Assembly (NCBI RefSeq): GCF_030846775.1
Contig: NZ_CP132910.1
Location: 4,839,001-4,903,000 of the forward strand
Direction: 5' to 3'
Origin: Geothrix sp. 21YS21S-2
GTDB taxonomy: Bacteria; Acidobacteriota; Holophagae; Holophagales; Holophagaceae
Length of the DNA stretch: 64,000 bases
Shown here: piece by piece, positions 51,030 through 63,738 of the stretch
Layout of the letters: each line of letters starts with the position of its first letter
Numbering within the stretch: position 1 is the first letter of the stretch
The notes under the pieces: model-generated
What the model was told of the DNA's origin: nothing
The model's database searches: none
The model's input: only the letters and a program-made list of their open reading frames with translations
Translations under genes and position numbers: made by a program

Positions 51030-52616
51030 TCACGCCAGCTGGAACCGTTCCGTCAGCCGCCGCAGCTCCGAGGCCAGCGCCGCCAGCTCCTCCACGGTCT
51101 TCGCGGTCTCGCCCATGGTGGCCACCAGCTGCGTCGTGGCGGAGCCGTGGCGCTCGGTGAGGGCGCCGATGGAGCCCAGGTGGTCCAGGAGGCGCTCGGA
51201 GGAGGTGGCCTGGCGGTCCATGGCGGCGGCGATGTCCCGCACCTGGCCGCCGTTCTCCTGGATGTGGCCCTGGATGCGGCCGAGGCCCTCGTTGACCTGG
51301 CCCACGGCCTGGATGCCCTCGTCCACGCGCTGGGAGCTCTCGGCCACCAGGGCGGTGATCTCCTTGGCGGCCACGGCGCTGCGCTCGGCGAGCTTGCGCA
51401 CCTCCTCGGCGACGACGGCGAAGCCCTTGCCCTGGGCGCCGGCCTTGGCGGCCTCGATGGCGGCGTTGAGGCTCAGGAGGTTGGTCTGGCGGGCGATGTC
51501 GGCGATGACCGTGGTGATCCGGCCCACGTTGCGGGAACTTTCGAGGATGCCCCCCATGGCGCGGTCCGAGTCCGCGGCGCTGCCTCGGGCCGTGTCGGCG
51601 GCGGTCTCCGAGGCCGAGGCCAGGTTCTGGAGCCGGGCGGTGCCGGTCTGGACGGCGCCGGTGAGGGCCCGCATGTCCTGGACCAGGCCGGTGCCCGCCT
51701 CCATGATCGACCTCTGTTCGTTGGACGAGACGCCGATCTCGTCCGTGGCGCCCTTGACCTCGGAAACGGTGGCGCTCAGCTCCATGGCGGAGGAGGCCAC
51801 GCGGTGGCTCACTTCGGAGATCGTGCGGATGTGCTCCCCGAGGTCGTCGATGACGGCGTTCAGCGCGCGGCCGGTATCCCCCAGTTCGCCCCCTCCGGGC
51901 TCCGGGCAGCGGGTGGCGAGGTTCCCGGTCCTCAGGGCCTCCATGGCGGTGAGCAGGCCCGCGGCCTGCCTGCGAACGGCGTTCCCGAGCACCCGGGTGA
52001 AGGTGAGGCCCAGGGCGAGGGCGGCGGTGAGGCCGGCCAGGATCAGGTACTGACCGGTCCGGCTCCCCGCGAGGTCCCTGCGCACCAGGTCCTCGCCGTC
52101 GGTCTGGAGGCGAGCGATGAGCTTGAGGAGGAGGTTGTAGCCCTCCCTCCGGTAGGTGGTGTTGGCCTCGATGAGGGTGGGGAGCTCGTCGAGGGTGGCC
52201 TTGCGGGCCCTTTCCAGCACCGGGGGAAACGACTCCATGTACTTCCGCATGCCGGCGGTGATCCTGGCGGCGTCCTCCCGGTCCTGGCCCGTCCATGGGA
52301 GGGCGTCCATCTCGGCCAGGGACCTGGCGAGATCGGCCTCCACCTCCTTGAGGCGCTTGACCCGGTTCTCCAGATAGTCCGCGTTCCGGGCCGCGCCGAC
52401 CAGGGAGACGTGGATCACCCTGAGCACGTCTGAGTCGTGGAGGACCCGCGCGGCCACGGAACTCTTGGGGAGCCCGGATCCCAGGGCCACCTGGTCCGTG
52501 CGCAGCCGCTCGAGGCTGGCGGCGCCCAGCACGGCCACCAGGGCCAGGAGCGCCAGCTGGGTGCCCAGCAGGAACAGGAACTGGCCGCGGAGGTTGAGGG
52601 ATCGCAGGAATGCCAT
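51030..52616 (-). CDS. Methyl-accepting chemotaxis protein
   Basis: 528 residues. Membrane segment near residues 12-33, a helical periplasmic sensor domain (about 35-185), second segment near 188-210, HAMP, and a full cytoplasmic signalling domain with the conserved tip [20 protein letters not shown]. No CheR-docking tail. The start follows GGAGGCACC and lies only 12 bp after the stop codon of the DUF4010 gene upstream, so it looks like the last gene of the phosphate-related run. This suggests a receptor for the compound handled by that locus. It resembles the receptor at 14726-16345 in layout, but the sensor domain differs. Confidence 0.95.
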
Positions 52617-52628
52617 GGTGCCTCCGGA

Positions 52629-53948
52629 TCAAAGACCTAGGAGCGCATAGGCAAGGGAGAGGACGATGAGCCCCGCCATGCCCGAGGCCGCGAGGTTGGC
52701 GGTGCGCCGGGTGCCGAAGAGATACGTGTAGAAGACCTTCAACAGGTTGTTGCTGGCGGTGGCGATGATGATGGCCTGGAGGATCTGCCCGCTGCCGATG
52801 CCCAGGTTGCCCTGCAGGACGGTGACCACGAAGGGCGTGATGTCCGAGCAGCCCACGATGAAGGACATGGCGCGAAGGCCCATCTCCTTGAAAAGGATCA
52901 GGGCGTACTTGGTGGCGAAGGAGACCGTCACGAACATGAAGGCGAAAAAGAGCGCGGAATTGATCTCCAGGGGATTCCGGTGGAGAGCCTCCTCGCCGGA
53001 TTCCACGGCGGGGGCGGCCTCCGTGCCGTCCTCGGCGGCCTTGGGCGGGGCCTCCGGGCGCACGTCCCGGTTGAGCCAGAGGCCGTACCCGGCCGACAGC
53101 AGGGCCAGGATCAACAGGGCCGGGGCCACGCGGATGGCGTCCCGTGTGCGGAAGATGGCCACCAGGACCAGGACCCGCAGGTACATCATCGCCACCGCCA
53201 CGAGGATCGCCGCGGCGGCCTGATGGTCCCGGCCCGGGTGCTGCCTGGAGCGCTTGGCGAGCACCAGGACGGCCACGGTGCTGGAATACACGCCGCCCAG
53301 CAGGCCCGTGAGGAGCAGCCCCCTGCGGGGATAGAGGTAGGTCTGCAGCACGTAGCCCAGGTAGGAGATGGTGGTGGTGACCACCACGGCCATCCACACC
53401 TGCCGGGGCGTGAGCGGCAGCACCGCGAAGAGCCGGCCCAGGTAGCCCGTGGGGGGCACCACGGCGGGGATCAGCGGCAGCACGACGCCGGCGATGGCCA
53501 GGAACTTGCAGGCCGTGACCACTTCTCCGGTCTCCAGGCGGTCCGTGAACTTCCGGATCCGGCCCTTGGAGTGAAGCACGAACAGGATGGACACGGCGAT
53601 CAGCACCACGTACCAGTGGGGCTGGAGGAGCGTGATGGGACCCAGGGTGTAGGTGAGCAGGGCGATGAGCACCCCGATCAGGCCGGGGCTCTTCTTCTGG
53701 CGGACCTTGTTGTTGTAGTAGACCAGGAGGAACGGAACGATGGCGGCCAGGCCCATGATGAAGACGTAGGGGCCGACGGTGGGCATCTGGTAGAGGAGGA
53801 AGCCCAGCATGCCGAAGAACACGAAGGTGCGCACGGTGCCGAAGGTGTCGAACTTGTTCTCGCCCTCGTAGTAGTCCCGCAGCCCGATCCCGATGAGGAA
53901 GCTGGCGGCGAGGGTGAGCAGGAACGAGGCTACGAGGGGGGGGATCAT
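52629..53948 (-). CDS. MgtC/SapB-DUF4010 membrane protein (paralogue 1)
   Basis: 439 residues, about 11-13 membrane segments. The N-terminal third (FLIGIGLRDYYEGENKFDTFGTVRTF, FGMLGFLLY) is MgtC/SapB-like. The remainder (TGEVVTACKFLAIAGVVLPLIP, VVVTTTISYLGYVLQTYLYP, GVYSSTVAVLVLAKRS, TASNNLLKVFYTYLFG) matches DUF4010. A charged cytoplasmic loop of about 40 residues lies near 310-345. MgtC-type proteins influence magnesium and phosphate balance; the function of DUF4010 is unknown. Highly similar throughout to the gene at 54694, pointing to a tandem duplication with one gene inserted between. The ATG at 53948 is preceded by AAGGAG. Confidence 0.9.
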   Translation of the reverse strand: MIPPLVASFLLTLAASFLIGIGLRDYYEGENKFDTFGTVRTFVFFGMLGFLLYQMPTVGPYVFIMGLAAIVPFLLVYYNNKVRQKKSPGLIGVLIALLTYTLGPITLLQPHWYVVLIAVSILFVLHSKGRIRKFTDRLETGEVVTACKFLAIAGVVLPLIPAVVPPTGYLGRLFAVLPLTPRQVWMAVVVTTTISYLGYVLQTYLYPRRGLLLTGLLGGVYSSTVAVLVLAKRSRQHPGRDHQAAAAILVAVAMMYLRVLVLVAIFRTRDAIRVAPALLILALLSAGYGLWLNRDVRPEAPPKAAEDGTEAAPAVESGEEALHRNPLEINSALFFAFMFVTVSFATKYALILFKEMGLRAMSFIVGCSDITPFVVTVLQGNLGIGSGQILQAIIIATASNNLLKVFYTYLFGTRRTANLAASGMAGLIVLSLAYALLGL

Positions 53949-54012: not shown

Positions 54013-54651
54013 CTACTCCATCCCGACGACCTTCTTGGCGGCCTTCAGGTAGTTGGTGTTGGGCATGGCGGCGATGCCCATGCCCTCGACGACCTTCTTC
54101 ATGCCCTCGTAGTTCTCGCTCTCGGCGCAGGCGGATTCCACCAGGGCGCCGTTGAACCAGACCTGGGCGTACTCGCAGATGATCCCCTCGATGGTGAAGC
54201 CGTAGCGCATCTTCTCGACGCTCACGGGGCACAGGGCAGGGTGCCTGCGGGCGAAGGCGACGAACTCGTCCAGGGTGTAGGTGTCCTGTTCGAGGGCGGT
54301 GTCGACCTTCAGGTGGGAGAGGATGGTGGCCAGGTCCTCGCGCTTGACGGGGAACTGGAACTTGCCGCGGGGCTGGAAGATCTCGTAGCCCTCGGGGGTC
54401 TCGCCGACCTTGGTCTTGATGTCCAGGAGCCCGTCGCGCACCTTGACGTTGGCCTCGTTGGTGAGGGTGGAGAGGAAGTAGGTCTCCGCGGGCATCTTGC
54501 GGGCCTGGAACAGGACGGTCTTGCCGTTCCAGATGTTGCCCTTGACCAGGTCGATGACCCCGTGCCCGAAGACGCGGAACTCGGCGCGGGGGATGATCTT
54601 GGCGGCGTCCTCGGTGGAGGTGGCGGTGTTCTTGGCGAAGGGATCGGCCAT
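54013..54651 (-). CDS. Uncharacterised 212-residue protein, possibly CYTH-like
   Basis: 212 residues, no signal peptide or membrane segment, so cytoplasmic. I recognise no family with confidence. The pattern is faintly that of the CYTH/triphosphate-tunnel fold: an early AEFRVFG strand, NVKVRDGLLDIKTKVG (as in the basic V-K-x-R-D-G-x-L-D-x-K strand), and late VEKMRYGFTIEGIICEYAQV followed by a helix EGMKKVVEGMGI, the usual last CYTH helix. The ExExK metal motif is absent, so it would be a divergent or non-catalytic member. It sits between the two DUF4010 paralogues, 42 bp after one and 64 bp before the other, with an AAAGGAG site. Confidence 0.6.
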   Translation of the reverse strand: MADPFAKNTATSTEDAAKIIPRAEFRVFGHGVIDLVKGNIWNGKTVLFQARKMPAETYFLSTLTNEANVKVRDGLLDIKTKVGETPEGYEIFQPRGKFQFPVKREDLATILSHLKVDTALEQDTYTLDEFVAFARRHPALCPVSVEKMRYGFTIEGIICEYAQVWFNGALVESACAESENYEGMKKVVEGMGIAAMPNTNYLKAAKKVVGME

Positions 54652-54693: not shown

Positions 54694-55974
54694 CTAGAAC
54701 GCCACGGCGACGTAGAGGAAGGAGAGGACGGCGGCGCCGCCCATGCCCGCGGCCACCAGGGTGGCGGCGCGGCGGTTGCCGAAGAGGTAGGCGTAGACGG
54801 CCTTCATGAGGTTGTTGCTGGCCGTGGCCACCAGGATCGCCTGGAGGACCTGCGGCTGGGAGATGCCCAGGTTGCCCTGGAGGATGGAGACGATGAAGGG
54901 CACGATGTCCGAGGCGCCCACCAGGAAGCTGAGCATGCGCAGCCCCAGGTCCTTGAAGTAGATGAGGACGAACTTCGTGACCACGGTGACGACCACGAAC
55001 ATGAGGGCGAAGAGGAGGGCGGCGTTGATCTCCAGCGGGTTGCGTTCCTTGAGCTCGACCTCGGCCTCCGGGACGTCCTCGGGCGCGGGCCCGCCCCGGA
55101 CCCACCAGGCGTAGGCGGCCACAAGGATCGAGAGCGCCAGGAAGGGCACCGTCAGGCGCAGGGCGCCCGCGGGCATGAAGGCCGCCACCAGGATGAGGAT
55201 CCGGAGATACATGGTGGGGGTGGAGAGGAGGATGGCCGCGGCGGTCTCCCGGGCCTCCCCGGGCAGGTTCCGGGTCCGCTTGGAGAGCACGAGCGTGGTC
55301 ATGGTGCTGGAGTAGAGCCCGCCGATGATCCCGGTGAGCAGCATGCCCTTCTTGGGGTAGAGGTAGGTCTGGAGGACATAGCCGGCATAGGAGATGGCGG
55401 TGGTGACCACCACGGCCATCCAGATCTGCCTTGGCGTGACCGGCAGGATGGTGAAGACCCTGGCGGCCCAGCCTTCCACGGGGATCGTGGCCGGTATGAG
55501 CGGCAGGATGACCCCGGTGATGGCCAGGAACTTGCACGCCGTGACCACCTCGCCCGTCTCCAGGCGGTCCGTGAACTTGCGGATGCGCCCCTTGGAGTGG
55601 AGCACCAGGAGGATCGTCACGCCCAGGGCCGCCAGGAACCAGTGCGGCTCATGGATGGCAACCGGGCCGATGCTGTAGGTGAGCATGGCGATGAGCACCC
55701 CGATGAGGCCGGGGCTGCCGTGCTGGGTGACCTTGTTCCGGTAGTAGACCACCAGGAAGGCCCCCAGGACCGCCATCCCCATGAGGAAGGCGAAGGGTCC
55801 CAGGGCCGGGATGCGGTAGACCACGAAGCCCAGCATGCCGATGAAGATGAAGGTGCGGACGGTGCCGAAGGTGTCGTACTTGCCCTCCCCTTCGTAGTAC
55901 TCCCGCAGGCCGATGCCGATCAGGGTGCTCATGGCAAGGGTGAGGAGGAAGGGGATGATCTGGGGTGGCAGCAA
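54694..55974 (-). CDS. MgtC/SapB-DUF4010 membrane protein (paralogue 2)
   Basis: 426 residues, about 11-13 membrane segments, same architecture as the gene at 52629: LIGIGLREYYEGEGKYDTFG, IRKFTDRLETGEVVTACKFL, VVVTTAISYAGYVLQTYLYP, and TASNNLMKAVYAYLFGN. I place the start at a TTG at 55974, with AGAGGT a few bases upstream, because this aligns exactly with the start of its paralogue (the upstream 37 codons of the open frame are unrelated). The gap to the upstream gene is 35 bp. Probably inner-membrane; the transported or sensed ion is unknown. Confidence 0.88.
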   Translation of the reverse strand: MLPPQIIPFLLTLAMSTLIGIGLREYYEGEGKYDTFGTVRTFIFIGMLGFVVYRIPALGPFAFLMGMAVLGAFLVVYYRNKVTQHGSPGLIGVLIAMLTYSIGPVAIHEPHWFLAALGVTILLVLHSKGRIRKFTDRLETGEVVTACKFLAITGVILPLIPATIPVEGWAARVFTILPVTPRQIWMAVVVTTAISYAGYVLQTYLYPKKGMLLTGIIGGLYSSTMTTLVLSKRTRNLPGEARETAAAILLSTPTMYLRILILVAAFMPAGALRLTVPFLALSILVAAYAWWVRGGPAPEDVPEAEVELKERNPLEINAALLFALMFVVVTVVTKFVLIYFKDLGLRMLSFLVGASDIVPFIVSILQGNLGISQPQVLQAILVATASNNLMKAVYAYLFGNRRAATLVAAGMGGAAVLSFLYVAVAF

Positions 55975-56009: not shown

Positions 56010-56705
56010 TCAGTGCCTGGACTGGACCGTGTCCCTGAACATGTAGAGATAGAGAAGGGCGATCCCCAGACCCGCGACGAGCCACAGGAGGGACCGGCTG
56101 GAAGGCACCGCCTCCAGGACCATGGAGGTGGAATCGCCCTGCTTGAGGGCGGCGGCCTGCAGGAGCGCCGTCTGGCGGCCGTCGGCCCTTCCCAGGCGGA
56201 CGCGGGGTTCCGCTTCCTTCTTGGTGGGCTTGGGCAGGGCCTCCTTGATGGCCTGGAACCGGTAGCCGGCGGGCAGGACCACCTCGAGGCTGAAGGCGGT
56301 GATGGGATCATCGTAGGTATTGACGAAGGCGGCGCGCACGACCCGGCTGGAGCCGGGCATCTTGGCCTTTTCGCCCTCGGCGACGGCTTCGGGCGAGAAC
56401 AGGCCGGTGGCCGTGTAGGTGAAGGAGCAGGTCCAGACGCCAGGTTCCGGCGGCAGGACGACCTTCACGAGCGCACCGCGGGATTCCAGGCCGAGTGCCT
56501 TCGGGCCGCTCGCGAGGAGGAACCCGGAGGCCTTGAGGCCCACGGGGATCTCAACGGTCTCGTTCGCCGCGCCGGCGATCACCAGCGTGGTGGTTGCCCG
56601 GCCCGCGCCGTCCGGGGAGAGTTCCACCCGGGTGGCGTAGGACTGGATCTCGGCCGCTGAAAGGGCGGCGCCCAGGAGGAGGAGGGGAAGCAGGAGCCGG
56701 CTCAT
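56010..56705 (-). CDS. Periplasmic protein with C-terminal membrane anchor
   Basis: 231 residues. A signal peptide (LLLPLLLLGAALSAAEI), a beta-rich periplasmic domain of about 170 residues (ATRVELSPDGAGRATTTLVI, VWTCSFTYTATGLF, ITAFSLEVVLPAGYRF) and a C-terminal membrane segment (LLWLVAGLGIALLYLYMF) with a short cytoplasmic tail. No family recognised. The ATG overlaps the stop codon of the SLC13 gene (ATGA), which indicates translational coupling. It may be a periplasmic partner of that transporter, an inference from the overlap alone. Confidence 0.75.
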   Translation of the reverse strand: MSRLLLPLLLLGAALSAAEIQSYATRVELSPDGAGRATTTLVIAGAANETVEIPVGLKASGFLLASGPKALGLESRGALVKVVLPPEPGVWTCSFTYTATGLFSPEAVAEGEKAKMPGSSRVVRAAFVNTYDDPITAFSLEVVLPAGYRFQAIKEALPKPTKKEAEPRVRLGRADGRQTALLQAAALKQGDSTSMVLEAVPSSRSLLWLVAGLGIALLYLYMFRDTVQSRH

Positions 56706-58267
56706 TTAGGCATCGCCCAGAAGGAAGGCGTGATGCCGAGCCAGTGGAACCAGGTGGCCGCCGAGATGACCAGCAGCACCATGCCCACCGTGCACGTGAT
56801 CATGCCGAACTTGAAGTTGTCCATCACGGTGTACTGGTTCGTGGAGAAGAGGATCACGTTGGGCTTGCCGCTGATGGGCAGGCCCACCACCCAGTCGATG
56901 CAGAGCGCGGCGGGCAGGGCCATGGACACGGGATCCCAGCCCAGGGCCTTGGACATCGTGATGATGATCGGGATGAGGATGATGGTGCGCACCGTCTTGG
57001 AGGTGGTGAGCAGGTGGCTGTACATCATCACGCCGGTGATGAGGGTGAAGGCCGCGCCGAAGGGGATGGACTTCAGGTTCATGCCTCCGAACAGCGTCCT
57101 GACGCCCCATTCCGCCGCCCCGGTGTCCTCCAGGGCGAGGCCGCCGGCATAGGCGCCCGCGGAGAAGATGAGGAGGTGCCAGGGGATGTCCGCCTCGCTC
57201 CACTGGAGCACCCCGTAGCGGGGGAAGAGCACGAGCACCGCGCCGATCAGGGCCGCGAAGGGCGCGCTGATCTCCACGCCGAACCAGCGCATGTGGAATA
57301 TGTCGGTCATCCAGAGGAAGAGCACCACGCCGAAGATGACCATGGCCTTCTTCTCCTGGAAGCTGAACGCGCCCATGGAGCGGTGCTGCTCCTCCACCAG
57401 GGCCAGGCCGCCCTCGACCTTGGGGGTCTGGTCCCCGGCCGCGATGGGGAAGATGAACCTCTGCCCCACGAACCACATGATAAGCATGGTGAGGATGGCG
57501 ATGGGAGCCCCGGCGATCATCCAGTCCATGTAGTAGACCCGGTGGCCGGTCATGCTCTGGATGAAGGCCACCGCCACCAGGTTGGCCGAGGAGCCGGTCA
57601 TGGTGACGGAGGTGAGCACCGAGATGCCCGCCAGGTTGAGCAGAAGCAGGTTCTTGCCGAAGTTGTTGGGGGTCTGCTCGGTGGAGCCGTAGATGGTGCC
57701 CACCACGATGATCAGGGGCAGGGTCATGACGCAGCGCGCCGCCGTGGCCGGGATCAGGGGGGACAGGGCCAGCTGGAGGATGACGAAGGCCAGCAGGGCC
57801 CAGGAGGCCTTCCGGCCGAACTTGACGATGAGCCACAGCGCCATGCGCTTGGCCAGGCGGGTCTTCACCAGCATGGAGCTGAGGATGAAGGCCAGCAGGT
57901 TGAGCCAGATCACTTCCATGCCCAGCACGTCCATGATCGGCTTGGCCGGGGAGGTGCGCGTGACCAGGAGCAGGAACATGAGGATCAGGGACGTGACGTA
58001 GGTGGGGAAGGGCTCGGTCACCCACCACACCAGGGCCAGCGCGAAGCAGGCCGTGCCCGTCTGGGCCGCGCCGCTCAGGCCGGCGCCCGCGGGGAGGTAG
58101 TACACGAGGAGGAAGAGCAGGATGCCCCCCGGGAATCCCAGGTAGCGCATCCATTTCTCGGTGGGGCTCTGGGCCTCTCTCGTCTTGGAGGAGAGGACCA
58201 TCTTCTCCATGTCCAGGAGGGCCTGGAGGGAGTGGGCGGGAGTCGCCGCGGGTGCTTCAGCTGCCAT
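56702..58267 (-). CDS. SLC13/DASS-type anion transporter
   Basis: 521 residues with about 11-12 membrane segments. Two signature loops of the DASS family are visible: TMTGSSANLVAVAF near residue 225 (SNT-type motif) and LPISGKPNVILFSTNQ near residue 465 (second SNT-type motif). Family members are sodium-driven importers of sulfate, di- and tricarboxylates or, in yeast and plants, phosphate. The neighbourhood of phosphate-hydrolysing enzymes favours phosphate, but sulfate or dicarboxylate cannot be excluded from sequence. It starts 50 bp after the CYTH gene, past a GC hairpin; weak ribosome-binding site AGGCAGAG. Confidence 0.9.
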   Translation of the reverse strand: MAAEAPAATPAHSLQALLDMEKMVLSSKTREAQSPTEKWMRYLGFPGGILLFLLVYYLPAGAGLSGAAQTGTACFALALVWWVTEPFPTYVTSLILMFLLLVTRTSPAKPIMDVLGMEVIWLNLLAFILSSMLVKTRLAKRMALWLIVKFGRKASWALLAFVILQLALSPLIPATAARCVMTLPLIIVVGTIYGSTEQTPNNFGKNLLLLNLAGISVLTSVTMTGSSANLVAVAFIQSMTGHRVYYMDWMIAGAPIAILTMLIMWFVGQRFIFPIAAGDQTPKVEGGLALVEEQHRSMGAFSFQEKKAMVIFGVVLFLWMTDIFHMRWFGVEISAPFAALIGAVLVLFPRYGVLQWSEADIPWHLLIFSAGAYAGGLALEDTGAAEWGVRTLFGGMNLKSIPFGAAFTLITGVMMYSHLLTTSKTVRTIILIPIIITMSKALGWDPVSMALPAALCIDWVVGLPISGKPNVILFSTNQYTVMDNFKFGMITCTVGMVLLVISAATWFHWLGITPSFWAMPK

Positions 58268-58317: not shown

Positions 58318-58791
58318 TTACGCCTTGTTCCAGGTATTGTAAGGGTTCTTAAGCAGGTTGGAGTTGAAATAGCGGGGGTCGCTGGAGACTTCGGGGCCCA
58401 CCCAGGCGGGGAGGGTGATGGCCTCGTCCTCGGAGGCCAGCTCGATCTCGGCCACCACCAGGCCCTCGTTGAGGCCGTGGAAGACGTCGATCTCCCAGGT
58501 CTTGCCGAAGTGCACCTCCTTGTGGCGGTGCTTGTCGATCAGGGGCTGCTCGCAGAGGTTGTCCAGCAGCAGGGCGGCGTCCTCGACCGGGATGGAATAC
58601 TCGAATTCCGAGCGGGTTACGCCGGTGGTGATGCCCTTGATGGTGAGCTTGGCGCGGGTGCCTTCGATGCGCACGCGCACCACCCGCTCCTTCTGCGAAT
58701 TGAGGTAGCCCTGCTTGAAGTGGATGCCTTCGCCCTGGGGGACCCACGCGTCGAGCTTCACCTGGTACTTGCGTTCGATTTCCTTGGCCAC
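58318..58791 (-). CDS. CYTH-domain triphosphate tunnel metalloenzyme
   Basis: 157 residues. The GTG at 58791 has a perfect AGGAGG site; an upstream ATG would add 13 residues without homology. The protein starts MAKEIERKYQVK, containing the diagnostic ExExK metal motif (Glu4, Glu6, Lys8). Basic strands VVRVRIEGTRAKLTIKG and the acidic EYSIPVED, WEIDVF and VAEIELASEDE follow in the order of the eight-stranded tunnel, and the C-terminal SSDPRYFNSNLLKNPY is typical of the CYTH subgroup that includes the Nitrosomonas and Clostridium tripolyphosphatases. The likely reaction is hydrolysis of tripolyphosphate or another triphosphate with magnesium or manganese in the cytoplasm. Second gene after the porin. 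Confidence 0.93.
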   Translation of the reverse strand: MAKEIERKYQVKLDAWVPQGEGIHFKQGYLNSQKERVVRVRIEGTRAKLTIKGITTGVTRSEFEYSIPVEDAALLLDNLCEQPLIDKHRHKEVHFGKTWEIDVFHGLNEGLVVAEIELASEDEAITLPAWVGPEVSSDPRYFNSNLLKNPYNTWNKA

Positions 58792-58890: not shown

Positions 58891-60216
58891 CTAGAAATTG
58901 ACCTGGAGCCGGATGGTCGTGATGGAGAAGTCGTCGTTGACGATGCCGCCGTAGACGCCCTTGGGCTTGGCGTTCTCGTTGTTGTCGACCTTGGTGTAGT
59001 CGGCCATCCAGCGGATGTTCTTGTTGGTGTACCAGGTCAGGCCCAGGGACATGTTCTTGGCCTGGCCGCCCTTGACGGCGTCGATGGCGGTGAGGTCGTC
59101 CTGGTTCATCTTGCTGTAGCGGGCCACCACTTCGAGGGCACCCATCTTGCTGCTGGGGGTGACCTTGCCGAACAGGCCGTCCTGGGCGCTGTAGGAGCGC
59201 CGGCCGCCGAAGATGTAGGACACCTGGCCGTAGTAGGTGGAGAAGGTGTGGTCGACGACGCTGGCGGCGAGGGCGGCGGCGGTGGTGCCGAAGGCGTCCC
59301 GGCGCTTGACCTTGGTCTGCTGGTACTCGCTCTGCCAGGAGAAGGCGTTCCACACGCCCGCGAACTCGGCGCCGGTCTGGGTGTAGTTCTTGACGTTGGC
59401 GACCTTGGCGTTCAGGAACTTGGCCTTGCTGATCTTGCCGGCCTCGGGCCTGCCGGAGAAGTCGATGGCATAGGCCTCGCCCGCCACGGGCACCAGGGTG
59501 GTGGTGCTGTAGTCGGCGATGGGGGTGCGGGTGTTCATGGCCACGCCGAAGTGGATGGCCTTGGACTCGTTGACGAGGATGGGGGCCACGCTGACCCGGC
59601 CGGCATAGCCCCAGCCGTGGTCGGAGCCGTTGGTGTCGGCGGTGTTGGTGTCGTCGATGGCCTGGCCGAAGAAGTTGGCCTTGGCCTGCCAGCGCTCGCC
59701 CCACTTGGCGACGGCGACGCCCACGTGCCGGTCGGGGGTCCAGATGTCGCTGTAGGAGCGCTCGGTGAACCAGATGGCGTTGGAGGAGGAGAGGGTGTCG
59801 AAGCCGAAGGGCGCCTTGAACTGGCCCACCTGGATCAGGGTGTCCTTGAAGCCCTGGTAGCCGACCCACATGTCCTTGACGGAGGCACCGCCTTCGGCGA
59901 AATCGTAGTCGCCTTCGGCGACCCAGTCCTTGCCGAAGCCGGCCTTGAAGCTGATGCGGCCGCGGCGCAGCTGGGTGCCGTTGGCCAGGCGGTTCTTGTT
60001 GCCGTCGAAGAAGACCGAGTCCAGGTGGAAGCGGCCGCCGAACTTGACGTAGAAGCCGCCGTCCTTGGACTCGTCGGACTTCTTGGCCTCGAGTTTGGTG
60101 AGCTTCTCGACCTTCTTCTCGAGATCGGCGATGCGCTTGTCGGCGTCGGTGGGAGCCTGGGCGGCGAGGGGGCCCGCCAGGATGGCGAGGGCCAAGGGCG
60201 TGACGAAGAACTTCAT
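58891..60216 (-). CDS. OprP/OprO-type (phosphate-selective) porin
   Basis: 441 residues. Signal peptide (FFVTPLALAILAGPLAAQA), a short coiled coil (KRIADLEKKVEKLTKLEAKK) as in trimeric porins, and a beta-barrel rich in aromatic strand ends. The segment GGRFHLDSVFFDGN, RRGRISFKAGFGKDWVAEGDYDF, MWVGYQGFKDTLIQVGQFKAPFG and the terminal phenylalanine (RLQVNF) match the phosphate-selective porin O/P family, whose prototypes pass orthophosphate (OprP) and polyphosphate (OprO). The start at 60216 follows GGAGG. A sigma-54-type promoter lies about 90 bp upstream. Anion selectivity is inferred from the family. Confidence 0.92.
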   Translation of the reverse strand: MKFFVTPLALAILAGPLAAQAPTDADKRIADLEKKVEKLTKLEAKKSDESKDGGFYVKFGGRFHLDSVFFDGNKNRLANGTQLRRGRISFKAGFGKDWVAEGDYDFAEGGASVKDMWVGYQGFKDTLIQVGQFKAPFGFDTLSSSNAIWFTERSYSDIWTPDRHVGVAVAKWGERWQAKANFFGQAIDDTNTADTNGSDHGWGYAGRVSVAPILVNESKAIHFGVAMNTRTPIADYSTTTLVPVAGEAYAIDFSGRPEAGKISKAKFLNAKVANVKNYTQTGAEFAGVWNAFSWQSEYQQTKVKRRDAFGTTAAALAASVVDHTFSTYYGQVSYIFGGRRSYSAQDGLFGKVTPSSKMGALEVVARYSKMNQDDLTAIDAVKGGQAKNMSLGLTWYTNKNIRWMADYTKVDNNENAKPKGVYGGIVNDDFSITTIRLQVNF

Positions 60217-61120: not shown

Positions 61121-61146
61121 AAAAAGGGGGGGGCGGCGCCCCCCCC
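61121..61146 (-). terminator. Intrinsic terminator between pyrophosphatase and adk
   Basis: Eight G pair with eight C around a CGCCG loop, followed on the minus strand by TTTTT. It begins 8 bp after the pyrophosphatase stop codon and ends 25 bp before the adk start. Confidence 0.85.
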
Positions 61147-61153
61147 GGTCGTG

Positions 61154-61930
61154 TCATTCGCCCAGGTTCTTCGCGCCGGGCCAGCGGTACAGGCTGGGAT
61201 TGCCGTCCTTGTCCAGGGGGCGCCGGTCGGCGTCCGTGGTCACGGAGTTCTCGTAGTCCAGGATTGCGTCGCCCAGGAAGCGGATCGCCTCGGCCCGCTC
61301 CTTGAAGCCCGTGGAGGCCATCATCAGCTTGCCTTCCTTGTCCCTGCCCTTGTAGGACGTGAACCAGGTCTGGAGGATGGTGGTCACGCCGGGGAACTTG
61401 GCGTCCAGGTCGGCGATGCTCTTGCAGTTCCAGAAGGGCGAACCCTCCATGGCCACCACCAGCTTGTTGTCCACCTCGCCGGTGTCGGTGAGGACCAGGA
61501 TGCCCAGGGTGCGGGCCTTGACCACGGAGCCGGTGGGGACCGACTGGCCCAGGATCAGCACGTCGATGGGATCGCCGTCGCCGCCCTTGCTCTTGAGCAG
61601 GACGGAGCGGGGCACCGCCCCGTAGTTGCAGGGGTAGCCCAGGTACTGCACGTACCGGGGGGCCCCGTTCTTCTGTTCGATGGCGATGAGGCCGGTCTTG
61701 ATGTCGGTCTCGAATTTGGCCGTGGTGCCGGCGGGGATCTCGACGACGCAGTTGATGGTGCCGTCGACGTTGATGGGGTCGTAGCCGGTGAGGAAGTTCT
61801 TCCGGCCCTTGAGGACGTGGGCCTGGGCCGTGACGTCGGCGGGCTGCAGCGCCGGCAGGGGCGTGGCCGAGGCCGCCAGGCAGAGCAGGATCCCGGGGAG
61901 GAGGATGCGGGGGGAGAAAAGGGTCTTCAT
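61154..61930 (-). CDS. Exported family I inorganic pyrophosphatase
   Basis: 258 residues. Soluble pyrophosphatases are normally about 175-180 residues and cytoplasmic; this one begins with a signal peptide (FSPRILLPGILLCLAASATPL), so it should act in the periplasm. The family I core is complete: KFETDIKTGLIAIEQ (first substrate strand), YLGYPCNYGAVP, the signature DGDPIDVLILG with three metal-binding aspartates, ARTLGILVLTDTGEVDNKLV and the C-terminal WF/K segment. The ATG at 61930 has AGGAG ten bases upstream. It lies in a row with two other exported proteins, 42 bp after the preceding gene, and is followed by a terminator. Confidence 0.93.
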   Translation of the reverse strand: MKTLFSPRILLPGILLCLAASATPLPALQPADVTAQAHVLKGRKNFLTGYDPINVDGTINCVVEIPAGTTAKFETDIKTGLIAIEQKNGAPRYVQYLGYPCNYGAVPRSVLLKSKGGDGDPIDVLILGQSVPTGSVVKARTLGILVLTDTGEVDNKLVVAMEGSPFWNCKSIADLDAKFPGVTTILQTWFTSYKGRDKEGKLMMASTGFKERAEAIRFLGDAILDYENSVTTDADRRPLDKDGNPSLYRWPGAKNLGE

Positions 61931-61972
61931 GTGTTCCAAGCTCCTATTCGATGGGCCAATGGGGCGCGAGAC

Positions 61973-62749
61973 TTATGACGGATCGTCGTTGTGGGCGGCC
62001 TTGGCCTTCTTGGCCTTGGTCTTGGGCTTCTCGGCCTCGGGGGCGGACGCCGCGGCGACGGCCAGGATGATGTGGGGGCGGCTCTTCTTGGCGGGGTCGT
62101 CATAGGCCAGCTTGGGGCTCTTCATGAGCTCCTCGCGGACGGTTTCGGGGGCGTATTCGAGCAGGTAGTAGGTGGGGCCCCAGGGGGTCTTGCCGGGGTC
62201 CACGACTTCCTGGATCAGCCGGGCCGCGTTGGCCATCTGCTCCGGGGTGCGGTCCGGGTTGTGCTTGGAGTAGCGGCCGGACTTGTTGTTGATGGTGAAG
62301 CTCTTGGTGGCCTTGTCGTAGTTGATCTCGCCGCTGATGCGGCTGGGGCCGCCCGCGATGGCGGAGACGTGGCCGTAGTTCTCGGTGGTGCCGGGCTTGC
62401 GCTTGGACTGGTCCTCGGGGCGGAAGAAGCCCTTGGCGTAGGTGCGGCCCAGGGGATGGGCGGCTTCCTGGATGATGCCCACGCGGCCTTCGGCGTCGAT
62501 CACCCAGTTGTACGGGGCGTTCTTGGCGTCCAGGATGGCGGGGTAGTCCTTGGTGGCCACCTGGAGGTAGGGGTTTATGAGCACCTTGCCGTTCTTGTCG
62601 GCCTCGTAGTGCTTGATGTAGGCGGGCTGGGACAGGTAGCCGTACAGCGCGTCGAGCTTGTCGGGCCCGGCCTGGGCGAAGCCGGGAAGGGCGAGGCAGG
62701 CCGCGAGGGCGCCCAGCGTGAAACTGCGGGAGAGGTTTCGCATCGTCAT
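61973..62749 (-). CDS. Exported protein of unknown function, Lys/Ala-rich tail
   Basis: 258 residues, start at 62749 with GGAG upstream (the second ATG six bases later is possible). A signal peptide (FTLGALAACLALPGFAQAGPD) is followed by a mature domain of about 190 residues with aromatic and basic motifs (YGYLSQPAYIKHYEADKNGKVLINPYLQVATKDY in pieces, RVGIIQEAAHPLGRTYAKGFFRP, GHVSAIAGGPSRISGEINYD, KSGRYSKHNPDRTPEQ) and a lysine/alanine tail. I know no family. The many basic residues could bind polyanions. It lies between the exported CYTH-like protein (30-bp gap) and the pyrophosphatase (42-bp gap), so probably co-transcribed with both. Confidence 0.75.
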   Translation of the reverse strand: MTMRNLSRSFTLGALAACLALPGFAQAGPDKLDALYGYLSQPAYIKHYEADKNGKVLINPYLQVATKDYPAILDAKNAPYNWVIDAEGRVGIIQEAAHPLGRTYAKGFFRPEDQSKRKPGTTENYGHVSAIAGGPSRISGEINYDKATKSFTINNKSGRYSKHNPDRTPEQMANAARLIQEVVDPGKTPWGPTYYLLEYAPETVREELMKSPKLAYDDPAKKSRPHIILAVAAASAPEAEKPKTKAKKAKAAHNDDPS

Positions 62750-62778: not shown

Positions 62779-63738
62779 TCAGTGGGTGAGGGGCCTGTTC
62801 ATGAGCTTGCGCACCTTGGAACCGCCCCATTTCTCGGCCTGGGGCATGGCCAGGTCGCCCAGCTCGCCGAGGATGACCTTCTGGTAGAACTGCTCGCTGG
62901 CCTCGTGGAGCGCGGGGCTGTCGTAGTAGTCGATGTCGCCGTAGCCGAGGGAGACGTCGTAGAGGTAGGGGGCCTCGCCGGGCTTCGTGGACCACCCCTC
63001 GAAGGAGAAGCCGCAGTCGTCGGTGCCGGCCAGTTCCACCGAGCCCGGCTTCACGCGCACGGAGTAGGCCCGGTTGCCCACGAGTTTCGTGTCCGCCGGG
63101 ATGCCGAGGGTGGCCAGTTCGGGCATGTACTTGGCGAAATCGCCAAGGGTGAGCTTGCCCAGGCTGTCCAGGGTGACGCTGAAGGAGGCGCCCTTCTCGA
63201 CGTAGCCGTCCAGCATTCCGCCGGCGCCGGGGCCGGCGTTCTCCTCGGCCTCGACCTTCACCTTGTCCACGCCCACGACCTTCAGGGGCGTCGCCAGGGC
63301 GAGGTTGGCATCGGGATTGACGGCCTTGATGGTGAGACCCACCTGGAATTCCGCGACGCCCTTCTTGAACTTCTGGGTGATGCGCACCAGGTAGCCCTTC
63401 TTCCAGAGGTCCTGGCCGGGCGTGTCGAAGTACTCCTTGTAGGCGTTCTCGATCTTGAGGGGATTGTCGCCCTTCTCGGTGACCTTGAAGCCGTGCTTGG
63501 CGCCTGCGGCCTTGACCCGGTTCCAGACCGTCGCGAAGACTTCGGCAGGGGAGCCCTTGAGCTTGGCGGGGTCGAGGAGGAACTTCACCTCCCGCCCGTT
63601 CACGTTTTCCAGCCTGGGTGCGGGATACTTCTCGATGGTGCGCAGATGGAGAGCCTTGGCCTGTCCGGGTGCGGCCGCCCAGCCTCCGGTGGCCACGGTG
63701 CCCGCGACCAGCAGAACTGCCACGATGTTCCTGATCAT
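62779..63738 (-). CDS. Exported CYTH-like protein
   Basis: 319 residues. A signal peptide (NIVAVLLVAGTVATGGWAAAP) predicts export. The mature protein shows the CYTH order: GREVKFLLD (an ExK remnant of ExExK), then EYFDTPGQDLWKKGYLVRIT, which is the Y-F-D-T-P ... L-R-x-R segment of CYTH enzymes, FQVGLTIKAV (the L-T-x-K strand), a middle insert, and NRAYSVRVKPGSVELA with PYLYDVSLGYGDIDYYDS near the end. CYTH proteins are normally cytoplasmic, so a secreted one is unusual. It would be expected to bind or cleave triphosphates or polyphosphate in the periplasm. First gene after a strong sigma-54 promoter; GGAGAG ribosome-binding site. Confidence 0.75.
   Translation of the reverse strand: MIRNIVAVLLVAGTVATGGWAAAPGQAKALHLRTIEKYPAPRLENVNGREVKFLLDPAKLKGSPAEVFATVWNRVKAAGAKHGFKVTEKGDNPLKIENAYKEYFDTPGQDLWKKGYLVRITQKFKKGVAEFQVGLTIKAVNPDANLALATPLKVVGVDKVKVEAEENAGPGAGGMLDGYVEKGASFSVTLDSLGKLTLGDFAKYMPELATLGIPADTKLVGNRAYSVRVKPGSVELAGTDDCGFSFEGWSTKPGEAPYLYDVSLGYGDIDYYDSPALHEASEQFYQKVILGELGDLAMPQAEKWGGSKVRKLMNRPLTH

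Follow-up and report, generated by a model that had tools for sequence, protein, structure and literature searches.

A divergent tunnel-fold protein that travels with CYTH proteins and anion transporters in bacteria

Geothrix sp. 21YS21S-2 encodes a 212-amino acid protein which is predicted to adopt the tunnel fold of the CYTH/TTM enzymes and whose gene travels, in many bacterial groups, with an enzyme that cuts phosphate chains and with an anion transporter. Fold and gene company together suggest an undescribed module for the handling of phosphate or phosphate chains; a literature search, judged mainly on titles and abstract openings, returned no description of this gene set. The window, i.e., the whole stretch of DNA that was analysed, comprises 64,000 nucleotides, and the locus within it consists of the following features.

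51030-52616, minus strand: methyl-accepting chemotaxis protein, ending the cluster
52629-53948, minus strand: DUF4010 membrane protein a (PF13194, E 2.8e-47)
54013-54651, minus strand: divergent tunnel-fold protein of 212 amino acids, as predicted from the ORF, AlphaFold2 and Foldseek/VIA
54694-55974, minus strand: DUF4010 membrane protein b (PF13194, E 5e-52), with the start set by composition; the longest ORF extends to 56085
56010-56705, minus strand: small exported or membrane-anchored protein without known function
56702-58267, minus strand: DASS/SLC13 anion symporter (PF00939, E 2.3e-58)
58318-58785, minus strand: canonical CYTH protein with an EIERK motif (PF01928, E 1.7e-12); the longest form of the ORF extends to 58830
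58891-60216, minus strand: OprO/OprP-type phosphate-selective porin (PF07396, E 3.2e-49)
between the porin and the exported pyrophosphatase, minus strand: adenylate kinase, named from its sequence
61154-61939, minus strand: exported inorganic pyrophosphatase (PF00719, E 4.1e-29), the export call being a hydrophobic N-terminus read by eye
61973-62749, minus strand: exported protein without known function, travelling with the pyrophosphatase and the exported CYTH-like protein
62779-63738, minus strand: secreted CYTH-like tunnel-fold protein, as predicted by AlphaFold2 (pLDDT 90.0)

The segment 54013-54651 is filled by an intact ORF of 212 codons, and a good ribosome site, AAAGGAG, is located seven bases ahead of the ATG; no promoter was found in a consensus scan. 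An earlier sequence-only reading of this DNA, which gave no strand, had quoted two motif strings from the product; both are present, with NVKVRDGLLDIK corresponding to residues 68-79 and VEKMRYGF to residues 145-152. The gene is indeed situated between two ORFs matching DUF4010. With 63 loci encoding the protein, and with 11 of 41 related genomes carrying it, the ORF is beyond chance; it is real and conserved across phyla.

The guess of a CYTH-type fold is borne out by structure prediction. The AlphaFold2 model, calculated from an alignment of 48 rows (A1), has a mean pLDDT of 93.8 and a pTM of 0.87 and contains eight long strands in tunnel order. When the model was compared with the PDB by Foldseek, the first 11 rows were all CYTH/TTM proteins (E 3.3e-6 to 2.6e-5), and VIA-align gave a Z of 12.1 to 1yem_A (rmsd 3.7, 150 aligned), 12.0 to 7ns9, the Sulfolobus TTM (rmsd 4.2, 161 aligned), and 12.0 to 5a64_A, the mouse thiamine triphosphatase (rmsd 3.6, 174 aligned). 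The next tunnel-like folds, namely Mediator subunits, Cet1 and VTC, follow at a VIA Z of about 8. With a beta-tunnel obtained and CYTH/TTM proteins as best matches, the CYTH/TTM (triphosphate-tunnel) fold of the protein is confirmed as a high-confidence prediction.

In profile-profile comparison, by contrast, no significant score was reached. Using hhalign, the family showed no significant similarity to the CYTH neighbour, the secreted CYTH-like protein or a wide CYTH set (built from 27 of the 30 CYTH loci that were fetched and from every fourth row of alignment A2); a global alignment with the wide set appears sensible at several motifs, which is no evidence on its own. Pfam gave no match of any kind to the protein even at E 10, an SPX domain included, and no CYTH match to seven of its relatives. 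NCBIfam and PDB sequence searches did not recognise the protein, a PHROGs search gave nothing noteworthy, and a profile search of the PDB found only 1yem (E 0.39), the sole sequence hint of CYTH, and an unrelated chain (E 0.66). The family, which is missing from Pfam and NCBIfam, represents a variant of the tunnel fold. That it belongs to CYTH proper (PF01928) was considered and rejected, given the missing Pfam match and the lost ExExK.

Residue conservation was counted over the 48 alignment rows of the family. E24, R26, K79, E177 and Y201 are invariant (48/48), R72, E56 and E90 are found in 47 rows, R22, K147 and E160 in 46, E179 in 43, and K97 and R149 in 42. The ExExK motif is described as the hallmark of CYTH proteins (excerpt of PMC8233210). 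Its place is taken, in a topology-based alignment, by R22-x-E24-x-R26, i.e., RxExR, and the first Glu is replaced by Arg in 46 of the 48 rows. A late ExE-like pair is formed by E177 and E179, with a register set by topology and motif likeness; in the HMMER alignment of the family to 1yem, the ExE motif would fall five residues earlier. The sequence-only reading, which saw the CYTH order without its metal motif, is thus half right: the ExExK is altered, but E24 and the ExE-like pair are conserved, and a metal-free protein is unproven. The TTMs have an invariant Glu for metal site 1 and, as site 2, an acidic patch, which in Vtc4 is basic (excerpt of PMC4641920). Two of the four corresponding places look basic in the 212-amino acid protein (R22, R95/K97) in the tentative topology alignment, and in its metal-site residues the protein may tentatively be placed between TTM and Vtc4.

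Compared with the CYTH/TTM enzymes (PF01928: NeuTTM, ygiF, AtTTM3, SaTTM), the tunnel protein shares the predicted eight-stranded tunnel, the order of its strands, basic residues, closing helices and, as tentatively placed, an ExE-like pair, but it is without Pfam match, carries RxExR for ExExK and lacks detectable profile similarity. With VTC, i.e., the Vtc4 polyphosphate polymerase, it has the tunnel fold in common at a Z of 7.7 to a 9umg chain, well under the CYTH rows, and the basic character of some acidic-patch positions as tentatively aligned; it differs in keeping E24 and E179 acidic and in having no fused SPX or membrane part. AtTTM1 and AtTTM2 (CYTH cluster 7) are likewise tunnel proteins without ExExK (excerpt of PMC8233210); they are also without ExE and carry a kinase domain, whereas the bacterial protein keeps its ExE-like pair.

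The conserved ExE-like pair would fit catalysis as well as binding. A catalytic oligophosphatase, acting on PPPi, short polyP or PPi in series with the CYTH protein and freeing Pi from imported chains, is a serious possibility, though short of a probable one: E24, E177, E179, K79, R72 and K147 are conserved, and the plant proteins TTM1/2, without ExExK and ExE, still prefer pyrophosphate (excerpt of PMC8233210), but the Arg at the first Glu of the motif speaks against it, as does AtTTM3, in which mutation of Glu-2 or Glu-4 strongly lowers activity (excerpt of PMC4641920). It would, moreover, be redundant as a second hydrolase beside CYTH.

The setting is phosphate-related, in agreement with the sequence-only reading. 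The best solved relative of the canonical CYTH neighbour is 2fbl, NE1496 of Nitrosomonas (E 1.5e-14), which we take to be NeuTTM. NeuTTM is a specific tripolyphosphatase (excerpt of PMC3440374), and the neighbour is probably a tripolyphosphatase as well. The model of the secreted CYTH-like protein is matched by Foldseek at E 7e-8 and by VIA at a Z of 12.1 to 6yp4 and 11.8 to ygiF, and together with it the locus holds three tunnel-fold proteins, the number supposed in the sequence-only reading. No PDB chain was found with the porin by phmmer, and library searches with the 61973-62749 product gave as sole match a sub-cut-off NCBIfam entry (score 34.1 versus 220). A terminator-like G+C-rich hairpin with a T run (61126-61146, minus strand) follows the exported pyrophosphatase gene; it parts the exported group from the remainder, so that there are maybe two transcription units.

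The 63 loci encoding the tunnel protein were collected by a peptide-pattern scan and comprise close relatives only (61-95% identity); all neighbour counts describe these loci and a range of six genes. Gene maps were drawn from a composition-based gene caller and BLAST clusters, not from annotation, with families named by Pfam; many loci are MAG contigs, and organism labels are possibly wrong. One locus (L076) is truncated, and L021, L023 and L028 were kept outside the immediate-neighbour count and the tree by a string filter. The commonest gene order is CYTH, tunnel protein, DASS. CYTH is found near 42 of the tunnel genes, DASS near 40, LysR near 32, a PPX1-type exopolyphosphatase near 17, TctC near 13, DUF4010 near 11, the porin and DUF47 near 10 each, the exported pyrophosphatase near 9, TctA near 8, and PiT and SulP near 7 each; the family of the small exported or anchored protein is present near 13. 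In 28 of 29 immediate pairs, CYTH and tunnel protein genes are separated by at most 56 bases. At least one of DASS, TctA, TctC, PiT and SulP is present in 55 of the 63 loci; of the eight without, some are short contigs, while L065 and L067 have no contig end close to the tunnel gene. On a Citrobacter freundii plasmid the set is annotated in RefSeq as LysR, CYTH domain-containing protein, hypothetical protein (the tunnel protein) and SLC13 family permease; this DNA gave no match to E. coli genomes. A methyl-accepting chemotaxis protein gene recurs in 4 of the 63 loci. In nine Pseudomonadota loci (L060:10274-11722, L074:10304-11779 and seven more) DASS is followed by a protein of 480-500 amino acids with membrane segments, for which Pfam gave no match. 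SulP is found at L024:8906-10870 and in six more loci; the L024 protein, the single member scanned, has a STAS domain and, at its C-terminus, a domain for binding cyclic nucleotides.

The CYTH protein and the anion transporter are, from these counts, the general partners, and the pairing with DUF4010 is local. The sequence-only reading had proposed a metal-free sensor paired with the DUF4010 membrane proteins, and the tunnel gene is in fact flanked on both sides by DUF4010 genes, in the window as in several loci of Holophagaceae, and adjoins one in L145 and L146 as well. With most relatives lacking a DUF4010 gene within six genes and with the ExE-like pair retained, a DUF4010-specific sensor of this kind is nevertheless very improbable. 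An MgtC-family gene (L135:6742-7215, minus strand; PF02308, E 1e-34) adjoins a distant tunnel protein and may parallel the DUF4010 genes of the Geothrix locus.

The PPX1-type exopolyphosphatase (identified by 2qb6, E 7.8e-33) is present without CYTH in 13 loci and with CYTH in four, CYTH alone in 38; many spirochaete loci have it in place of CYTH. One short-chain phosphatase seems here to take the place of another, although the pattern follows clades. Other Acidobacteriota operons (L132, L133, L136) contain, in this order, porin, tunnel protein, CYTH, DASS, DUF47 and PiT, the Pfam run being done on representatives of these families; L132 has one extra small ORF after the porin, and in L138 the same genes are present in different order. 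In L131, on a Cupriavidus plasmid, and in L134, a single ORF encodes an N-terminal tunnel domain and a C-terminal Ppx/GppA domain (E 8.5e-47 and 2.2e-53, resp.), and in L139 a single ORF matches both by BLAST. Each fusion is adjoined by a CYTH-like gene, called in L131 and L134 from Pfam scores below the curated cut-off and in L139 by BLAST to L131. Being fused to or beside phosphoanhydride hydrolases would again be in keeping with a catalytic oligophosphatase.

Inorganic phosphate chemistry is favoured by most lines of evidence, the nearest solved relative of the CYTH neighbour among them. The transported anion is maybe not phosphate, since the window DASS has SLC13 carboxylate/sulfate carriers as its nearest solved structures and TctABC is, to judge from its name, a system for tricarboxylates. 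Carboxylate uptake is the usual setting of DASS and TctABC accompanied by a LysR gene, and a module importing an organic polyanion, e.g., a tricarboxylate, to which the tunnel proteins would bind, could draw on this set, on the SLC13 relatives and on the crystallization of AtTTM3 with citrate (excerpt of PMC4641920). PiT, DUF47, the phosphate porin, PPX1, the pyrophosphatase and the Ppx fusion are not known to take part in the uptake of carboxylates, and they make this explanation improbable.

The explanation we tentatively prefer, without giving it an even chance, is that the tunnel protein is a divergent oligophosphate-binding member of a mobile module for the acquisition of phosphate or short-chain phosphate (PPi, PPPi, short polyP) and is linked to transport, with an enzymatic role not far behind in likelihood. 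The exported pyrophosphatase and the exported CYTH-like protein would prepare the substrate outside. The basic tunnel of the 212-amino acid protein, taken to be cytoplasmic, would bind inorganic oligophosphate and, with its partly rebuilt metal site, would act as a binder or slow processor and be no copy of the CYTH triphosphatase. It would report or pass its ligand to the co-encoded anion transporter, and CYTH, or the PPX1-type exopolyphosphatase where CYTH is missing, would remove the ligand.

The transporter Pho91 is of the DASS type. In the SPX-DASS transporters Pho87, Pho90 and Pho91, a polyphosphate-binding cytoplasmic module is coupled to a sodium-phosphate carrier, and PPi acts on Pho91 through the SPX domain (excerpt of PMC6449605); it is on this model that we take the tunnel protein to link oligophosphate to transport. 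It differs from them as a separate gene of another fold and in a transporter class that varies between clades, a switching that speaks against a single, fixed protein contact. An undescribed bacterial counterpart of the eukaryotic SPX-transporter arrangement, in which a tunnel-fold oligophosphate receptor has spread between phyla, plugs into the unrelated transporter families DASS, TctABC, PiT or SulP and adjusts the uptake of phosphate to PPi or short polyP levels, would be a rather unlikely extension. The reason for which CYTH triphosphatases are kept by bacteria, and the importance of free PPPi in cells, are described as an open question (excerpt of PMC3440374), for which a CYTH and a rebuilt tunnel protein tied to transporters and a phosphate porin provide a concrete genetic setting.

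The frequency of the tunnel protein is low in the phylum sample (11 of 247 genomes). The genome of the window has one copy; a second copy, of 23-36% identity and beside the porin, is often found in Holophagaceae. In a tree of 60 rows (59 loci and the window), phyla are interleaved, e.g., with rows of Gemmatimonadota, Chloroflexota and Pseudomonadota lying among Holophagaceae and with Spirochaetota inside one starred group of 35 rows; from this, the gene appears to move horizontally, a reading to be taken with care as many of the labels are from MAGs. Spread across phyla is supported by named strains encoding the protein, e.g., Alkalispirochaeta alkalica DSM 8900, Turicimonas muris YL45 and Cardiobacterium valvarum, and Turicimonas, Parasutterella and Citrobacter are examples of culturable hosts of the module.
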